Source of the DNA: Candidatus Tectimicrobiota bacterium
Lineage (GTDB): Bacteria; JACPSX01
DNA: 9,428 nucleotides
NCBI GenBank assembly: GCA_016193065.1
Contig: JACPSX010000266.1
Location: 1 to 9,428, forward strand
Direction of reading: 5' to 3'
Positions 2,365 to 9,415 of this stretch are shown one piece after another. Below the pieces are notes generated by a model. It ran no database searches and was not told where the DNA came from. It worked only from the letters and a program-made list of their open reading frames with translations. The translations under genes were made by a program, and so were the position numbers. Position 1 is the first letter of the stretch. Each line of letters starts with the position of its first letter.

Positions 2365-2445
2365 CTCCACAAGCAAATTCCTATCACTTCACCCGAATCG
2401 AATATTTGCTTCCATTTGGCCCTGGCCCGTCTTCGGAGGGATACC

Positions 2446-5112
2446 ATGAACAAGAGCAGCCTTTCCAGATTCTTTTCATTGGGTGCCAACAGCATCTTTT
2501 ACCGGTTGAAACTTTCCTTTGCCTTTTTTTTCCTCACCCCGCTGATCGTCTTTTTCTTGCTGGGACTGCAGTACAACATCATCGAGAGCCAGGAGTCCTA
2601 TTATTACATACTGGCAATCTTGGTCTTTTCTCTTTTCGGCTATGTCATCGTGCGCCAGATTGTTCAAGGTGTCGACCGCGTGGCGAAAACCATGGAACAG
2701 CAGATGACCGAGCGCTTGGGTATCCCTATTGCAAGCGGAGACGAGATTGAAAGAATCGAAACCACATTCAAAACGGTGAGTACCCGCCTGGAACAATCCA
2801 ACCAATCCCTGCAAAGGCGCATGACTGAAATCGAAGCCTTACGGGAACTGAACCAGACATCCTTCTCCCATTTTGACCGGCAAAGCCTGTTGAACCGCGC
2901 GCTGGAGCGGGCGCTGGAAGTAACGCAAAGTGCAGGCGGTGCCCTGTTTGAACTGGAAAGAAGGGGGCCCAATGCATTTTTGGTTTGCCGGTCCGTTTGT
3001 GGAGAACACATCGTCATTGCAGAAAATGATGCCGTTCCCCTTGCAAAACTTCCCGTGCGTCAGGCCCTTGAAAAAGCCACTGTGACGTTGATGCCCCGAT
3101 CGGAAAGCAATGGATGGCAAGGAGTGCTCTCAGATTCTGATCCGGAGTGTCAGATCGCCGTTGTTCCCGTCACCGAGGAGATGGGATTTTCAGGGGTTGC
3201 CGTTCTGATTAAAACAGGGCCGGATCGGTGGGCCGAGGATAATTTAAATTTCTTGACGTCGTTGTTCGGGGTGATGGCCAGGTCGCTGAAGATCCAGGCG
3301 CTGGGCCGGCAGGAACAGGAAACAGCGGAAGATTTAAAAACGGTCCTCTATATTCTTCAAATGATAAACTCGGGGCTTACGGAAAAGGAAATGCTTTTGG
3401 CCATCGCAAAGAAACTCCGCGAGGTCATCCCGCATCACTGGGCAGGGCTGGCCCTGGTGGAGGAAGGAATCGGGGGTCTGAAGCTGGCGTACTCGATTCC
3501 CAAACCATCTGCCAGTCTGCCCCTCGGATCCGTGCTCCCCGAACAAAACTCCCTTTTGTGCACGGCGCTGCGCGCCCGGTCCGTACTGAACGTAGAGGAT
3601 CTATCGGAACAGCCCGACTACGTTGAACGGGTGCTGTGGGAGGAACTTGAGCTAAAATCGTGCCTGATGGCAGGCTTGCATTTTAAGGGCCAGTCTATTG
3701 GGGTCGTGTGCCTATCACACGTCGAAAAGAACGCATTCCGAATCGCCCATGAGCGAATATTTTCCATGATCACAGAGGGACTGTCGCTGGCCCTAAATCA
3801 GTCACGACTTCTGCAGCAGGCCAGGGAAAAGACCGGGGAACTGGAGGTGTTAAACCGAATCGGAAGAGCGCTGACTTCTTCTACTTTTAATATGGAGCGG
3901 GTGCTGACCTATACCCTGGAGATCATCTCCGGCCTGATCAACGTGGAGGCCGGCTCCCTGCTGTTGCTTGAAGGAGACGAACTGGTCTTCAAAGTGGCAA
4001 TCGGCAAAGCGGGGGAATCGCTCAAGGGCCTTCGCATCAAACTCGGCCAGGGCGTGGTCGGCTGGGTTGCGGCCACCGGAGAATCGATGGTGGTCCGCGA
4101 TGCGTCTGAGAATCCTCATTTTTACCACGGTGTAGATGAGCGTACCGGTTTTAAAACCAGAAACCTGCTCTGCATCCCCATGATCGTGGGCGGCCGTACC
4201 ATCGGAACCATCGAACTGATCAACAAGGTGAAAGGCACCTTCAGCGATGAGGACCTTCGAGTTTTAAAGTCTGTTGCCACCTCTGCCGCCATTGCAATTG
4301 AGAATTCGCAATTATATTCCAGTTCCATAAACATGGCCAAACGAGAACGACTGATTCGAACTATTTTCCAAAAGTACGTCCCTGAGGAGGTTGCTTCAGA
4401 AATTCTGGGCCGCGAGGAAGGGGACCTCATAACGCTGGGGAATCGCCGGCTCGTCACCTTGCTCAACGTCGATATCAGGGGCTATTCGCTCATGTCCAAA
4501 CAGGCCAGCGCCGAAACGGTGGTCAGCATTCTCAACTATTTTTTCATGCGGATGGGAACCATCGTCCTGAAACACAAGGGAATTCTGGACAAATACCTGG
4601 GAGACGGGCTTTTGGCCATCTTCGGTGCGCCCGTCGCCACTCGCAATCCTGCCCTGGATGCCACACTTGCGGCCATCGAGATGGTCGAGGCCATGGAGCT
4701 GGTGGACAAATTTGCTCAGGAAAAATGTGGCATTCCTCTCCACATGGGAGTCAGCATTAACACGGGCGAGGCAATCGTCGGCAATGTGGGATTTGAAAAG
4801 AAAATGGATTTCACGGCCATCGGAGAAGTCGTAAACGATACCTTCCGTCTCCAGAAGCTGACCCGCGAAAAACCCAATTCGATTCTTGTCAGCCAATCCA
4901 CGTTCGAAAAGATCGAACCGTTTGTTCAGGCGCGATCGGCGGGGGTCAAAGTCTTGGGCGCCAATGAAGGTCAGATGGCAGTCTATGAAATTACCGGGAA
5001 AAAAGAGATGTCCGATACGGAGTATCTGCTGTACCAAGCCAAAATCACGGAAAAGCAGCAACTTGCGAAGGGCGCGGGTGACGGCCTACATCCCCCCGGG
5101 TTGGTACACTAA
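2446..5112 (+). CDS. Membrane adenylate/guanylate cyclase with HAMP-like linker and three GAF domains
   Basis: Predicted 888-residue inner-membrane class III nucleotide cyclase, making cAMP (or cGMP) under control of sensory domains. ATG 2446 is preceded by GGAGGG (2435-2440) at 5 bases; the upstream in-frame TTG (2416) lacks such a site. Layout: two membrane helices (about 21-43 and 53-73) with a short loop between; a HAMP-like linker (about 70-118, containing GDEIERIETTF); three GAF domains (about 130-285, 300-455 and 468-622, the last the clearest); and the cyclase domain (about 638-850). Catalytic residues are all visible: metal-binding Asp676 (VDIRGYS) and Asp720 (YLGDG), purine-selecting Lys716 and Thr790 (DFTAIG), and Asn797 and Arg801 for transition-state binding. 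The Lys/Thr pair points to a class IIIb adenylate cyclase, though cGMP cannot be excluded. It stands alone, with large gaps on both sides and a lower GC content than its neighbours. Confidence 0.92.
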   Translation: MNKSSLSRFFSLGANSIFYRLKLSFAFFFLTPLIVFFLLGLQYNIIESQESYYYILAILVFSLFGYVIVRQIVQGVDRVAKTMEQQMTERLGIPIASGDEIERIETTFKTVSTRLEQSNQSLQRRMTEIEALRELNQTSFSHFDRQSLLNRALERALEVTQSAGGALFELERRGPNAFLVCRSVCGEHIVIAENDAVPLAKLPVRQALEKATVTLMPRSESNGWQGVLSDSDPECQIAVVPVTEEMGFSGVAVLIKTGPDRWAEDNLNFLTSLFGVMARSLKIQALGRQEQETAEDLKTVLYILQMINSGLTEKEMLLAIAKKLREVIPHHWAGLALVEEGIGGLKLAYSIPKPSASLPLGSVLPEQNSLLCTALRARSVLNVEDLSEQPDYVERVLWEELELKSCLMAGLHFKGQSIGVVCLSHVEKNAFRIAHERIFSMITEGLSLALNQSRLLQQAREKTGELEVLNRIGRALTSSTFNMERVLTYTLEIISGLINVEAGSLLLLEGDELVFKVAIGKAGESLKGLRIKLGQGVVGWVAATGESMVVRDASENPHFYHGVDERTGFKTRNLLCIPMIVGGRTIGTIELINKVKGTFSDEDLRVLKSVATSAAIAIENSQLYSSSINMAKRERLIRTIFQKYVPEEVASEILGREEGDLITLGNRRLVTLLNVDIRGYSLMSKQASAETVVSILNYFFMRMGTIVLKHKGILDKYLGDGLLAIFGAPVATRNPALDATLAAIEMVEAMELVDKFAQEKCGIPLHMGVSINTGEAIVGNVGFEKKMDFTAIGEVVNDTFRLQKLTREKPNSILVSQSTFEKIEPFVQARSAGVKVLGANEGQMAVYEITGKKEMSDTEYLLYQAKITEKQQLAKGAGDGLHPPGLVH

Positions 5113-5330
5113 CAAGAGCGGTGGAATCCGGAGCAAGGCCACCTCGCAGGGAATCCAGGACCCCTTCTCCTGCCTGTCGCCCCGGTCAGGCCGTACCGGC
5201 GCCATGGGGCCCAGTCGATCTAAAAAGTCTACGGGGTCGATCCTCTCGTTTACCCCAAATTCTACCTCTACCCTCTGATCGCTGAGATCTCTGATAACAG
5301 AGAAAGGTGATCTGGGTTGTTCCCGGATCG

Positions 5331-5794: not shown

Positions 5795-5818
5795 AACTCA
5801 GACAGCTTGGAGGTACGT

Positions 5819-7465
5819 GTGCGCCTGAAGCCCGGTGGCTGGTACAACCTGAGCACAAAGGCCGTCATAGCCGTGGGGATCGTCAACGTGCTCGTGTTCC
5901 TGGTCTTCTCCTATGTTTCCATTCGCACCCAGCGCCAGCACCTGATCTCCGAAGTCGTGCGGGGGGCAAGCCTGTTCAGCGACACGGTGAAGAGCAGCAC
6001 CTACCGGGACATGCTCGAGGATCGTAGGGAAGACGCCTATCTGGTCATGGAAACAATCGGCAGGCAGGAGGGGATTGCGAAAGTCAGGATCTTCAACAAA
6101 GAGGGGAAGATCACCTTCTCCACGAACAAGTCCGAAATTGACCAGCTCGTGGACAAGCAGGCCGAGGCCTGCTACGCCTGCCACGGCCCGGGAATGACCA
6201 AACCGGCTGTGAGCCTGGTGACCCAGGCCCGGGCGCGCATCTACGGGGAAAAGAATGGAAACCGGCACCGCGTCCTCGGCATGATCACCCCCATTTACAA
6301 CGAGAAGAGCTGCTACACGAGCAGTTGTCACGTCCACCCGGCCAGCCAGAGGGTTCTCGGGGTGGTCGACATCGGCATCTCCCTGGCGGACATTGATCGG
6401 GAAATCGGCGCCATCCAGAGGCGCACGGCGGTTCTGGCAGCCGGGGCGATCCTCTTGATCTCTCTGCTCGTCTGGCTCCTGGTGCGGCATTTCGTGGGCC
6501 GTCCCGTGCGGGAGCTCGTGAAGGGGACCCAGCGGATCGCCGAGGGGGATTTGGACCACCTGATCCCCGTCGACCGCTCCGACGAGATGGGGTCGCTGGC
6601 AGAAGCCTTTAACCGCATGACCCGTTCCTTGAAGAGAGCCCACGAGGAGCTGCAAAGCCTGATGGAAAAGCTGGAGGAAAAAGTCCGGGAGAGAACCCGG
6701 GCTCTCGGGGAGGCTCAAGCCCAACTGGTCCAATCCGAAAAGCTCGCCTCCCTGGGAAAGTTGGCAGCCTCCATTGCCCATGAGATTAACAACCCTCTGT
6801 CGGGGGTCCTGACCTACGCGAAGCTCATGATCCGACAGTTAAGTCGCGGCCAGCCCGACGAGAAGGTCCTGAGAGGAGCCATAAAAAATCTCTCCCTGAT
6901 CGAGCGGGAGACCCAGCGCTGCAGCACGATTGTCCGCAACCTCCTGGACTTTTCCAGGCAGCGGGATCTCTCCTTCGCCGCGGTGGACGTAAACCAAGTC
7001 ATTGAGGAGGCCCTCTCCTTGCTGGGCAACCAACTCGTCATCCAGGAAATCCAATTGCAAAAACGTCTCTCCCCCATGCCGAGCATCCAGGCTGATTTTG
7101 CCCAGCTCCGGCAGGCCTTCATCAACATCATTATGAACGCCTGCGAGGCCATGGAGAAGGGGGGGGGCCTCACAATTGAATCGAGGCCCGCAGGAGAAGG
7201 GGCAGTCGAGGTCCGGGTGACCGACACCGGGGTCGGAATCCCGGCGGAGAACCTCTCCAAGATCTTCGACCCCTTCTTCACAACCAAAGAAAAAGGCACC
7301 GGACTCGGGCTCTCGGTGGTCTATGGAATCATCGAGCGCCACGGGGGGAGGCTGGAAATCCAGAGCCAGGCGGGCCGGGGCACCATGATGATTGTCCATC
7401 TGCCGGTGAGCCGCTCGGGCAAGGAACGCGATGAAGAACCCCAGTACGACCGACTCGTCCTGTGA
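5819..7465 (+). CDS. Membrane sensor histidine kinase with c-type heme motifs
   Basis: Predicted 548-residue sensor kinase. GTG 5819 is chosen because GGAGG (5809-5813) sits 5 bases upstream. Layout: membrane helix about 15-33; periplasmic sensor about 35-202; membrane helix about 203-225; HAMP about 222-275; coiled coil about 272-308; HisKA with the phosphoacceptor in IAHEINNPLSG (His321); HATPase with N-box (Asn440), DTGVGI (469-474), FDPFF and GTGLGL (493-498). The sensor loop contains a canonical heme c site, CYACH (118-122), and a CX4CH site, CYTSSCH (165-171), followed by HP. Covalent heme and a redox or gas-sensing role are therefore inferred. The kinase core keeps all motifs needed for autophosphorylation. 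It overlaps the metallopeptidase gene by 35 bp and is in one operon with the response regulator, its likely partner. Confidence 0.93.
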   Translation: MRLKPGGWYNLSTKAVIAVGIVNVLVFLVFSYVSIRTQRQHLISEVVRGASLFSDTVKSSTYRDMLEDRREDAYLVMETIGRQEGIAKVRIFNKEGKITFSTNKSEIDQLVDKQAEACYACHGPGMTKPAVSLVTQARARIYGEKNGNRHRVLGMITPIYNEKSCYTSSCHVHPASQRVLGVVDIGISLADIDREIGAIQRRTAVLAAGAILLISLLVWLLVRHFVGRPVRELVKGTQRIAEGDLDHLIPVDRSDEMGSLAEAFNRMTRSLKRAHEELQSLMEKLEEKVRERTRALGEAQAQLVQSEKLASLGKLAASIAHEINNPLSGVLTYAKLMIRQLSRGQPDEKVLRGAIKNLSLIERETQRCSTIVRNLLDFSRQRDLSFAAVDVNQVIEEALSLLGNQLVIQEIQLQKRLSPMPSIQADFAQLRQAFINIIMNACEAMEKGGGLTIESRPAGEGAVEVRVTDTGVGIPAENLSKIFDPFFTTKEKGTGLGLSVVYGIIERHGGRLEIQSQAGRGTMMIVHLPVSRSGKERDEEPQYDRLVL

Positions 7466-8054
7466 TGTGCCCCAGCCGGCCCCTTTGTCCCCTCCTTGGC
7501 TGGAGGGGACCATCTACCTGGAGTGGATCGGAGAAGGGCGAATGGATGCCGGGCTCCTGAAAAGAATTCAAACCCACGTCGAAGAGATATTCCACTGCCG
7601 CACCCGCGTCCGAATCCGGAAGGGGAATATTCCTCTGGCCTTTGATCCAAACCGGCAGCAGCATTCTTCCACGGTAATCCTGCGCTGGCTCCTGGAAGAC
7701 GTCCCCCGTGATGCCCGCAAAGTTCTGGCCATCACCGACCGGGACTTGTTCATTCCGATTTTAACCTTTGTCTTTGGGGAGGCCCAACTGGGAGGGACGG
7801 GAGCCGTTGTCTCCACGGCCCGTCTCAAGGACGAATCCGGCGCGCAATCCGGGAATCCGGGGCTTTTCTTGAGCCGGCTGCTCAAGGAATGTTTGCACGA
7901 ATTGGGTCACACGTTCGGGCTCACGCACTGTTCGAACAACGGGTGTGTCATGGAGCGGTCGAACACGGTCTTTGACGTGGATCGCAAAAAGAGCGCCCTT
8001 TGCCGGGACTGCGCCATACTTGTGGGGGATAGGGTACGGGAGGAAGGGAAATGA
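7431..8054 (+). CDS. amzA: Archaemetzincin-family zinc metallopeptidase (M54)
   Basis: Predicted 207-residue zinc-dependent peptidase. The C-terminal part carries the archaemetzincin signature: HELGHTFGLTHC (His156, Glu157, His160, Gly163, His166, Cys167), then Cys172, the Met of CVM (174), and a closing CXXC (Cys191, Cys194). The three His bind catalytic zinc, Glu is the general base, and the four Cys are known to bind a second structural zinc in the family. There is no signal peptide or membrane helix, so it should be cytoplasmic. The length is typical of the family; the first 20 residues are a variable, Pro/Ser-rich extension. ATG 7431 follows AAGGAA (7421-7426) and overlaps the kinase end by 35 bp; its own stop overlaps the next start as ATGA. 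Translational coupling to both signalling genes suggests it works with them, but its substrate is unknown. Confidence 0.9.
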   Translation: MKNPSTTDSSCDVPQPAPLSPPWLEGTIYLEWIGEGRMDAGLLKRIQTHVEEIFHCRTRVRIRKGNIPLAFDPNRQQHSSTVILRWLLEDVPRDARKVLAITDRDLFIPILTFVFGEAQLGGTGAVVSTARLKDESGAQSGNPGLFLSRLLKECLHELGHTFGLTHCSNNGCVMERSNTVFDVDRKKSALCRDCAILVGDRVREEGK

Positions 8055-9415
8055 GAGAAAGGGTCAAGATCCTGGTCGTGGACGATGAGGAGATTGTGCG
8101 GGAGTCGCTCTCGGGATGGTCGGAGGAAGACGGCTACGGCGTGGGGGTGGCTCCCGACGGTCCCAGCGCCATCGAGAAGCTCAAGGGGAATGAATGGAAC
8201 ATCCTGCTCGTGGATCTGAAAATGCCTGGGATGGATGGATTGCAGGTTCTGGAAAACGCTCGTAAGGTTCGACCCGAGGCGGCCATCGTGATTATGACTG
8301 CGTACGCGACGGTCGATACGGCTGTACAGGCCATGAAAATGGGGGCCTATGATTACCTGGTCAAGCCGTTCGAGCCCGAAGAGCTTTCCCTGATGATCAA
8401 GAAGCTCGTAAACCAGCAAAATCTCCTCAGGGAAAACATCCTCCTGCGCAAGGCCCTCAAGCGCCAGTACCGCTTCCGGGATCTGGTGAGCAAAAGCCCC
8501 AAAATGCAGGGGATCTTCGAACTGGTGAAAACGGCGGCCAAGAGCAACTCCACGGTCCTCATCCTGGGGGAGAGCGGGACCGGGAAGGAACTTCTGGCCC
8601 GGGCCATCCATGCCGAGAGCCCGCGCTGCACCGGACCCTTTGTCGAAGTCTCCTGCGCGGCCCTCACGGAAACCCTGCTGGAAAGTGAGCTTTTCGGCCA
8701 TGAAAAAGGGGCCTTTACGGACGCCGTGAGCCGCAAAAAGGGAAAGTTCGAGATGGCCCACGGGGGGACTCTCTTCCTGGACGAGATCGGAGACATCAGC
8801 CCCAAGCTTCAGCTTGACTTGTTGCGGGTCATCGAGGAGAGAGAATTCCGGCGGGTCGGGGGCAGCGAGCTGATCAAGGTGGACGTGCGCATCATCGCGG
8901 CCACGAACCGCAACCTGAAGAAGCTTGTGGAGGAGGGAATATTCCGGGAAGACCTCTACTACCGGCTCAACGTGATCGCCATCACCTTGCCGCCCCTGCG
9001 GGAGCGCAAAGAGGATATCCCCCTGCTGGTTGAGCACTTTCTGGGTCAGCTCGGCGTGGAGATGGAAAAAAACCTGGAGGGGGTTTCCAGGGAAGCCATG
9101 GACCTTCTCCTGTCCCGGGACTGGCCTGGAAACGTACGCGAGCTGCGAAACGTCCTGGAGAGAGGTGCCGTAGTCGGCTCGGGCGGCATTTTGCAGCCCG
9201 GCGATTTGGGCCTGCTTGGGGCCGAAGGGGACGACGGCTTTGAGGGAGCGGGGGGAGAGTCCTTGAAAGAGGTCGAACGCCATCACATCCTGGAGGTTCT
9301 CAAGCAGAATCGCTGGAACATTTCCCGGTCGGCCCGGGCCCTGGGGATCGACCGGGTGACTCTCTACCACAAGATCAAGCGATACGGCTTGAAACCTGAG
9401 CGGGCTGTTTCGTAG
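8051..9415 (+). CDS. NtrC-family sigma54-dependent response regulator
   Basis: Predicted 454-residue cytoplasmic transcription activator. The receiver domain (about 5-120) has the acidic pair Asp11/Asp12, phosphoacceptor Asp55 (LLVDLKMPG), Thr83 and Lys105. The AAA+ domain (about 145-375) has Walker A GESGTGKE (173-180), Walker B GGTLFLDE (238-245), and Arg residues in REDLYYRLN (299, 305). The C-terminal Fis-type helix-turn-helix lies at about 423-445 (NISRSARALGIDRVTLYHKI). The sigma54-contact loop reads GAFTDA (220-225) instead of the usual GAFTGA. The ATG overlaps the stop of the metallopeptidase gene by 4 bp and the kinase lies one gene upstream, so this is the presumed phosphate acceptor of that kinase. 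Target promoters are unknown; no convincing sigma54 site was seen directly upstream of its own operon. Confidence 0.95.
   Translation: MRERVKILVVDDEEIVRESLSGWSEEDGYGVGVAPDGPSAIEKLKGNEWNILLVDLKMPGMDGLQVLENARKVRPEAAIVIMTAYATVDTAVQAMKMGAYDYLVKPFEPEELSLMIKKLVNQQNLLRENILLRKALKRQYRFRDLVSKSPKMQGIFELVKTAAKSNSTVLILGESGTGKELLARAIHAESPRCTGPFVEVSCAALTETLLESELFGHEKGAFTDAVSRKKGKFEMAHGGTLFLDEIGDISPKLQLDLLRVIEEREFRRVGGSELIKVDVRIIAATNRNLKKLVEEGIFREDLYYRLNVIAITLPPLRERKEDIPLLVEHFLGQLGVEMEKNLEGVSREAMDLLLSRDWPGNVRELRNVLERGAVVGSGGILQPGDLGLLGAEGDDGFEGAGGESLKEVERHHILEVLKQNRWNISRSARALGIDRVTLYHKIKRYGLKPERAVS

Follow-up and report, generated by a model that had tools for sequence, protein, structure and literature searches.

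The sensor histidine kinase, archaemetzincin (AMZ, peptidase family M54) and NtrC-type response regulator encoded by three overlapping genes of a Candidatus Tectimicrobiota bacterium (contig JACPSX010000266.1, positions 5819-9415) form a trio that we read, with a probability of about 0.55, as the regulatory half of a conserved envelope-redox two-component system in which AMZ is a dedicated, probably proteolytic arm. The analysed window is the whole contig (9428 bp) of a 2.9-Mb metagenome-assembled genome (MAG) that is 86% complete. All three open reading frames lie where the preliminary description had placed them, with overlaps of 35 bp between kinase and AMZ (7431-7465) and of 4 bp (ATGA, 8051-8054) between AMZ and regulator, good Shine-Dalgarno sequences at the three starts, and 13 bp from the end of the regulator to the end of the contig. 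Since the trio is found beside one and the same family of electron-transfer genes in about 15 phyla, the trio-type AMZ subfamily probably belongs to one redox-response system. The link between kinase, peptidase and regulator is real: the trio occurs in two gene orders across these phyla, is co-inherited, and has its own AMZ clade with intact catalytic residues. Of the mechanism first suggested, the gene link stood, while processing of the kinase or regulator by AMZ, a fixed stoichiometry and a zinc input are conjectural.

A search with the AMZ protein over 84,980 species yielded 311 related stretches, and in nearly all of the best 80 of these 311, which were kept, a homologous kinase and an NtrC-type regulator adjoin AMZ. 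Because this set is skewed to near relatives, we turned to an unbiased sample that spans Bacteria with, for the most part, one or a few representatives of each family (386 genomes). An M54 match was found in 71 of the 386 and the trio in 19, the window's own genome included, which excludes that the arrangement is confined to this genome. Among 81 trio loci the order kinase-regulator-AMZ occurs in 41 and kinase-AMZ-regulator in 37, with gaps that range from a few bases up to a few tens (the first conserved AMZ codon comes a median of 21 bp after the kinase stop, and the first conserved regulator codon 8 bp after the AMZ stop); the recurrence of this tight spacing rules out a chance or local arrangement. 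According to record titles the phyla include Acidobacteriota, Myxococcota, Thermodesulfobacteriota, Rokubacteria, Methylomirabilota, Nitrospinota, Zixibacteria, Latescibacteria, Gemmatimonadota, Ignavibacteriota, Neomarinimicrobiota and Bacteroidota. Distances in the AMZ and sensor trees correlate (rho 0.73, above all 500 permutations; Spearman coefficients were used and long branches dropped, as Pearson coefficients were unstable for the regulator). In a Bacteroidota MAG (locus L051, 738-7250) tandem trios show both orders, kinase-regulator-AMZ and then kinase-AMZ-regulator.

Archaemetzincins are present in archaea, bacteria and animals, and their natural substrates are unknown (PMC3427221). 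The AMZ of the window scores 90 bits with Pfam PF07998 (cut-off 24.4) and 167 bits with NCBIfam NF033823 (cut-off 145), and its motif, read directly as HELGHTFGLTHC-x4-C-V-M-x16-C-x2-C, fits the M54 pattern HExxHxxGxxHC-x4-C-x-M-x(16-17)-CxxC with E157 as the catalytic Glu, in agreement with the preliminary description. The ATG at 7431 is preceded by an AAGGA Shine-Dalgarno sequence, and residues 1-25 are not conserved. The predicted structure (AlphaFold2, pLDDT 91) has the metzincin fold of AmzA, matching 2x7m in Foldseek (E 4e-17) with a TM-score of 0.84 and 36% identity. In an IQ-TREE phylogeny of 133 sequences (100 of the trio clade, contig-edge cases included, and 33 others), the trio AMZs and the contig-edge cases form one clade of 100 with support 99/93 and none of the 33 others inside; 99 of the 100 adjoin parts of the system (the exception is L043), against 0 of the 33. 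Within the clade H156, E157, H160, H166, Cys167, Cys172 and Cys191 are 100% conserved and Cys194 98%, whereas outside it the catalytic Glu is kept in 88%. The only clade-conserved positions that are rare elsewhere, I108, T112, Q119 and L120, all fall in the substrate-recognition edge segment. We noticed no fusion of AMZ to other domains in the trio clade. The trio AMZ is under selection to retain intact catalytic residues together with a clade-specific cleft.

At nearly every trio locus with enough flanking sequence, genes for GcvH-like proteins adjoin, often two of them, and the usual further neighbours encode c-type cytochromes and two subunits, an iron-sulphur (FeS) one akin to HmcB/HybA and one of the NrfD type akin to HmcC/HybB. 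The GcvH-like proteins lack a lipoyl lysine where one is expected and have a T..DGG signature in common at the C-terminus (hereafter GcvH-DGG). Unfused GcvH-DGG was found in 19/19 trio genomes and 3/367 others (Fisher 2e-29) and HmcC in 17/19 and 42/367 (Fisher 2e-13), counts that ignore phylogeny and are to be read as association strength, not as probabilities; the GcvH-DGG status of genome G025 was taken from locus L153, and the three non-trio GcvH-DGG loci are all cut by contig ends. Genomes with a lone AMZ carry HmcC at background frequency (6/52), which rules out that any AMZ goes with the redox complex. The HmcB and HmcC proteins of locus L041 score 309 and 378 against equivalog cut-offs of 420 and 550, and are thus related but not equivalog. 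Members of the GcvH-like family (L041 6238-8261 (+), L055 5061-5768 (-), alignment A4) also carry an N-terminal Cys-rich part or transmembrane (TM) helix, the Cys-rich forms being CPFLEE..YC.AYP.RKMIP or CIWM.AG...YKLC...C..C.FD.

The kinase, with residues counted from an upstream TTG at 5807, has two TM segments, the motifs CYACH (residues 122-126) and CYTSSCH (169-175), and the H-box HEINNP at 325. In the aligned sensor segment C109, C112 and H113 (CxxCH) as well as C156, C161 and H162 (CX4CH) are invariant in 35 diverse kinases. The sensor profile matches the Geobacter c-haem sensors 3b42 and 3b47 across the second motif, and the sensor model resembles the extracellular Cache domain of WalK and 3b42, so that the window sensor combines a CxxCH-type motif with a Cache fold between two TM helices, as haem-c Cache sensors do. 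Its score with PF11845 (sCache_heme) is 10.3 bits, below the cut-off of 24.1, and it also falls below the PF21563 cut-off. The genome has genes for cytochrome c assembly. Dihaem variants of this type of sensor domain are already known (PMC3831638), and single-haem versions fused to signalling modules were reported as nitric oxide (NO) sensors (PMC12889525). Given the invariant motifs, the matches to Geobacter c-haem sensors, and these known dihaem versions and NO-sensor reports, the haem reading of the sensor is well founded, with haem attachment predicted from the motifs.

Loci that hold only some of the parts indicate which of them is constant. Among the strongest dihaem sensors of the sample (>220 bits, n=22), AMZ lies alongside 15. 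Five are paired with two receiver-GcvH fusions and HmcB/HmcC, and in 5/5 both AMZ and the NtrC-type partner are missing; one has NtrC, no GcvH-DGG and no AMZ, and the locus of one is clipped by a contig end right after NtrC. Four loci with a weaker dihaem sensor and NtrC, again without GcvH-DGG, also lack AMZ (L246, which is a short contig, L249, L252 and L253). The objection that related kinase-regulator pairs normally lack the peptidase therefore holds only for other sets of partners (receiver-GcvH fusions, or no GcvH-DGG), and not otherwise. Trios with PAS or Cache kinases retain NtrC and AMZ (L030, L052, L058, L059, L064, L139, L146, L149, L150), mostly together with a GcvH-like protein that is sometimes beside a NuoF/HydB-like enzyme or a transporter and not Hmc. 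The haem sensor is hence not the invariant part, and these trios together with the AMZ-free dihaem/receiver-GcvH loci rule out that the peptidase goes with the haem sensor. From the contrast loci, the constant core is NtrC, AMZ and GcvH-DGG, while sensor and redox partner vary; the GcvH-like protein is the most constant companion of NtrC and AMZ. Genes for NuoF/HydB-like NADH-binding flavoproteins, not Hmc genes, adjoin the non-haem-kinase trios of L052, L058 and L150. The receiver-GcvH fusions, two in tandem after the dihaem kinase and beside HmcB/HmcC (L239 8233-9405 (+), L240, L241 3240-5243 (-), L242, L243), are apparently an undescribed type of response-regulator output.

The window regulator has the REC, AAA+ and Fis helix-turn-helix (HTH) architecture of NtrC-type sigma54 activators. 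Scoring with weighted TGGCAC-N5-TTGCW gave 38 near-perfect -24/-12 sites in the trio loci, compared with an expectation of about 10 from shuffles. Of the 38, 25 stand directly before GcvH-like or HmcB genes. Before AMZ or regulator starts of the trio loci sigma54 sites are not enriched, and AMZ is thus not seen as a member of the sigma54 output operon. In the window's genome, contig C274 holds an operon for a 76-residue Cys-rich peptide, two GcvH-like proteins, HmcB, HmcC and a cytochrome, with TGGCACATCCCCTGCA, a one-mismatch sigma54 site, just upstream. The gene of the peptide (MKCPFLTEMTVVFCRAYPIRKFVP...) lies at about 4870-5156 (-) of this contig (locus L205), behind that site and before the GcvH-like genes.

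In the best supported scheme, the kinase would read the periplasmic redox or ligand state through its Cache-like domain with two c-haem motifs and would phosphorylate the NtrC-type regulator. Together with sigma54, the regulator would switch on the GcvH-like operon, to which most lineages add an Hmc/Hyb-like electron-transfer complex. AMZ, co-produced with the two signalling proteins, would stand on the regulatory side as a catalytically competent third member and, on the most economical reading, would probably cut or remove one cytoplasmic protein of the same system. Candidate substrates are GcvH-DGG in the first place and the regulator in the second, GcvH-DGG being ranked first because a dihaem kinase with NtrC but without GcvH-DGG is also without AMZ. 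The specific proposal that AMZ cleaves a lipoyl-less GcvH-like subunit of the redox complex switched on by the same kinase/NtrC pair, in about 15 phyla, is tentative and, taken whole, somewhat doubtful. If true, the system would be under double control, transcriptional and proteolytic, which the receiver-GcvH fusions would achieve by direct phosphorylation, and a proteolytically active archaemetzincin would for the first time have a physiological role and a substrate assigned to it.

Several observations, besides the neglect of phylogeny in the counts, weigh against the proposed redox system and its proteolytic arm. A few trios (L011, L056, L073, L074) have neither GcvH-like nor Hmc genes in the available flanks. 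AMZ tracks NtrC nearly as well as GcvH-DGG, and since it follows both, its distribution cannot pick the substrate. Archaeal AMZs showed no activity on standard substrates after purification (PMC3427221), and CarG of Myxococcus works without proteolysis (PMC8156234). The redox operon of the window's own genome lies on a contig other than that of the trio, beside a different pair without AMZ, namely a kinase with one CxxCH and an NtrC-type regulator with GAFTGA (L205 6488-9287 (+)). The loop of the window regulator is GAFTDA, not GAFTGA, no sigma54-like site stands out within the window, and RpoN (PF04552, PF04963) was not found in the 86%-complete MAG, its at least two NtrC-type regulators notwithstanding. 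Because of the other pair on C274, the failure to find RpoN in the incomplete genome and the GAFTDA loop, the target of the window regulator in its own organism is one that we infer.

The main rival to a proteolytic arm is a non-proteolytic role of AMZ, in which zinc would stabilise it as a partner of the NtrC-type regulator or the kinase. This rival owes its rank to the precedent of CarG, an archaemetzincin that is inactive and is translated together with CarD. The earlier statement that archaemetzincins have no settled role in bacteria overlooked this non-proteolytic transcription factor (PMC8156234, PMC3427221), which is archaemetzincin-like, translationally coupled to carD and forms one regulatory unit with CarD (PMC8156234). 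Every trio AMZ weakly matches the CarG model NF033824, the AMZ gene is tightly coupled to the regulator gene and archaeal AMZs showed no activity in assays. However, the window AMZ scores 90 bits against an equivalog cut-off of 250, which rules it out as CarG. The change of the catalytic Glu to Gln that marks CarG is absent, with E157 present and the Glu and three His ligands kept in 100/100 members of the clade. Moreover, the clade-specific changes sit in the substrate cleft, and AMZ is missing where NtrC and a dihaem kinase occur without GcvH-DGG. On balance, we consider a non-proteolytic partner role unlikely. A cytoplasmic redox or zinc sensor, in which oxidation of the Cys4 site would control the peptidase activity of AMZ itself or the kinase/regulator, would suit the redox theme of the rest of the system, the near-invariance of the site (98-100%) and the redox switch proposed there by Graef et al. 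(PMC3427221); but the same authors conclude from mutants that the site is structural (PMC3427221), and AMZs from outside the system conserve it to nearly the same degree, which makes this role quite improbable. That AMZ is a passenger, a housekeeping peptidase hitch-hiking in the operon, fits the lone AMZs of many genomes but is very improbable in view of one exclusive clade, the retention of all three genes in two orders, a spread over some 15 phyla, complete active sites, and the systematic absence of AMZ from the receiver-GcvH architecture.

The analysis links one AMZ clade, in many phyla, to a defined pathway that comprises about six genes, and the substrate question therefore becomes testable with a short list of candidates. 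It also points to an undescribed system of dihaem kinase, NtrC, peptidase and GcvH-like proteins in widespread, mostly uncultured bacteria, in which GcvH-like proteins, the receiver-GcvH fusions included, may be reused as regulators of redox complexes. A literature search, with subscription papers outside its reach, yielded no paper joining archaemetzincins with two-component systems and none joining GcvH-like proteins with NrfD/Hmc or response regulators. The parts are known families; their assembly and the dedicated peptidase clade appear to be undescribed.

Features of the kinase-AMZ-regulator trio in the window, with positions on the 9428-bp contig.
Feature	Position	Strand	Remarks
Sensor histidine kinase: TM1, periplasmic dihaem-type sensor, TM2, HAMP, HisKA, HATPase_c	5819..7465	+	GTG start after perfect GGAGGT
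TM-sensor-TM segment (alignment A1); predicted Cache/PAS fold	5846..6481	+	
First haem-c motif, CYACH	6170..6184	+	C, C and H invariant in 35 relatives
Second haem-c-type motif, CYTSSCH (CX4CH)	6311..6331	+	C, C and H invariant in 35 relatives; aligns with haem site of GSU0935/GSU0582
Archaemetzincin (AMZ, M54), trio clade; no TM segment detected	7431..8054	+	Overlaps kinase by 35 bp
AMZ residues 108-120, edge-strand/bulge-edge segment (substrate recognition, PMC3427221)	7752..7790	+	I108, T112, Q119, L120
HELGHTFGLTHC...C.M...C..C, catalytic zinc site and Cys4 zinc site	7896..8012	+	
NtrC/AtoC-type response regulator: REC, sigma54 AAA+, Fis HTH	8051..9415	+	ATGA overlap with AMZ
Sigma54-contact loop, GAFTDA variant	8708..8725	+	GAFTGA or GSFTGA in 75/84 trio regulators

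Upstream of the trio the window holds an arsenic resistance cluster (1-1236) with acr3, clipped by the contig start, and a thioredoxin-type arsC. An ArsP_1 permease reading frame (1366-2151) covers half of its profile, and a protein-like reading seems to run on in other frames, so that the gene may be frameshifted or broken. Positions 2416-5112, which separate the arsenic genes from the trio, encode a large protein that combines GAF domains with a class III adenylate/guanylate cyclase domain.

The trio resembles several known systems in part. The AmzA proteins (AfAmzA, MkAmzA) have the same fold, HExxHxxGxxHC-x4-C-x-M...CxxC motif and Cys4 site as the trio AMZ, whereas the latter is a distinct clade tied to a two-component operon, and its edge segment reads DLFIPxLTFVFGEAQL in place of the DLFVPxLNFVFG(E/Q)A(D/E) of other archaemetzincins. 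Like the trio AMZ, CarG of Myxococcus xanthus is a bacterial archaemetzincin-type protein co-translated with a transcription regulator that needs it (PMC8156234); it is without the catalytic Glu, partners CarD and extracytoplasmic function (ECF) sigma factors and occurs in myxobacteria only, whereas the trio AMZs keep the Glu and have NtrC as partner. With the haem-c Cache sensors (GSU0935, GSU0582; sCache_heme, PF11845) the kinase shares the Cache/PAS fold and a CxxCH-type haem site at the same position, and a second haem motif is known in some of them, the dihaem GSU0591, GSU0599, Adeh_2011 and Adeh_3383 (PMC3831638); unlike these, the window type of sensor has two invariant motifs, CxxCH and CX4CH, and the window's own sensor scores below the PF11845 and PF21563 cut-offs. 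The AtoSC and ZraSR pairs, which gave the best NCBIfam scores, have the same kinase core and regulator architecture but another sensor and no AMZ gene, and scores far under the equivalog cut-offs (AtoS 256/646, ZraS 207/479, AtoC 505/714, ZraR 411/760) rule out equivalogs of either. Finally, HmcB/HybA-like FeS subunits, HmcC/HybB-like NrfD subunits and c3-type cytochromes are common to the Hmc/Hyb complexes and the trio-linked clusters, whereas in the latter no NiFe hydrogenase subunit was seen, and two GcvH-like proteins, one with an HmcD-like TM helix, occur in association with NtrC and AMZ.

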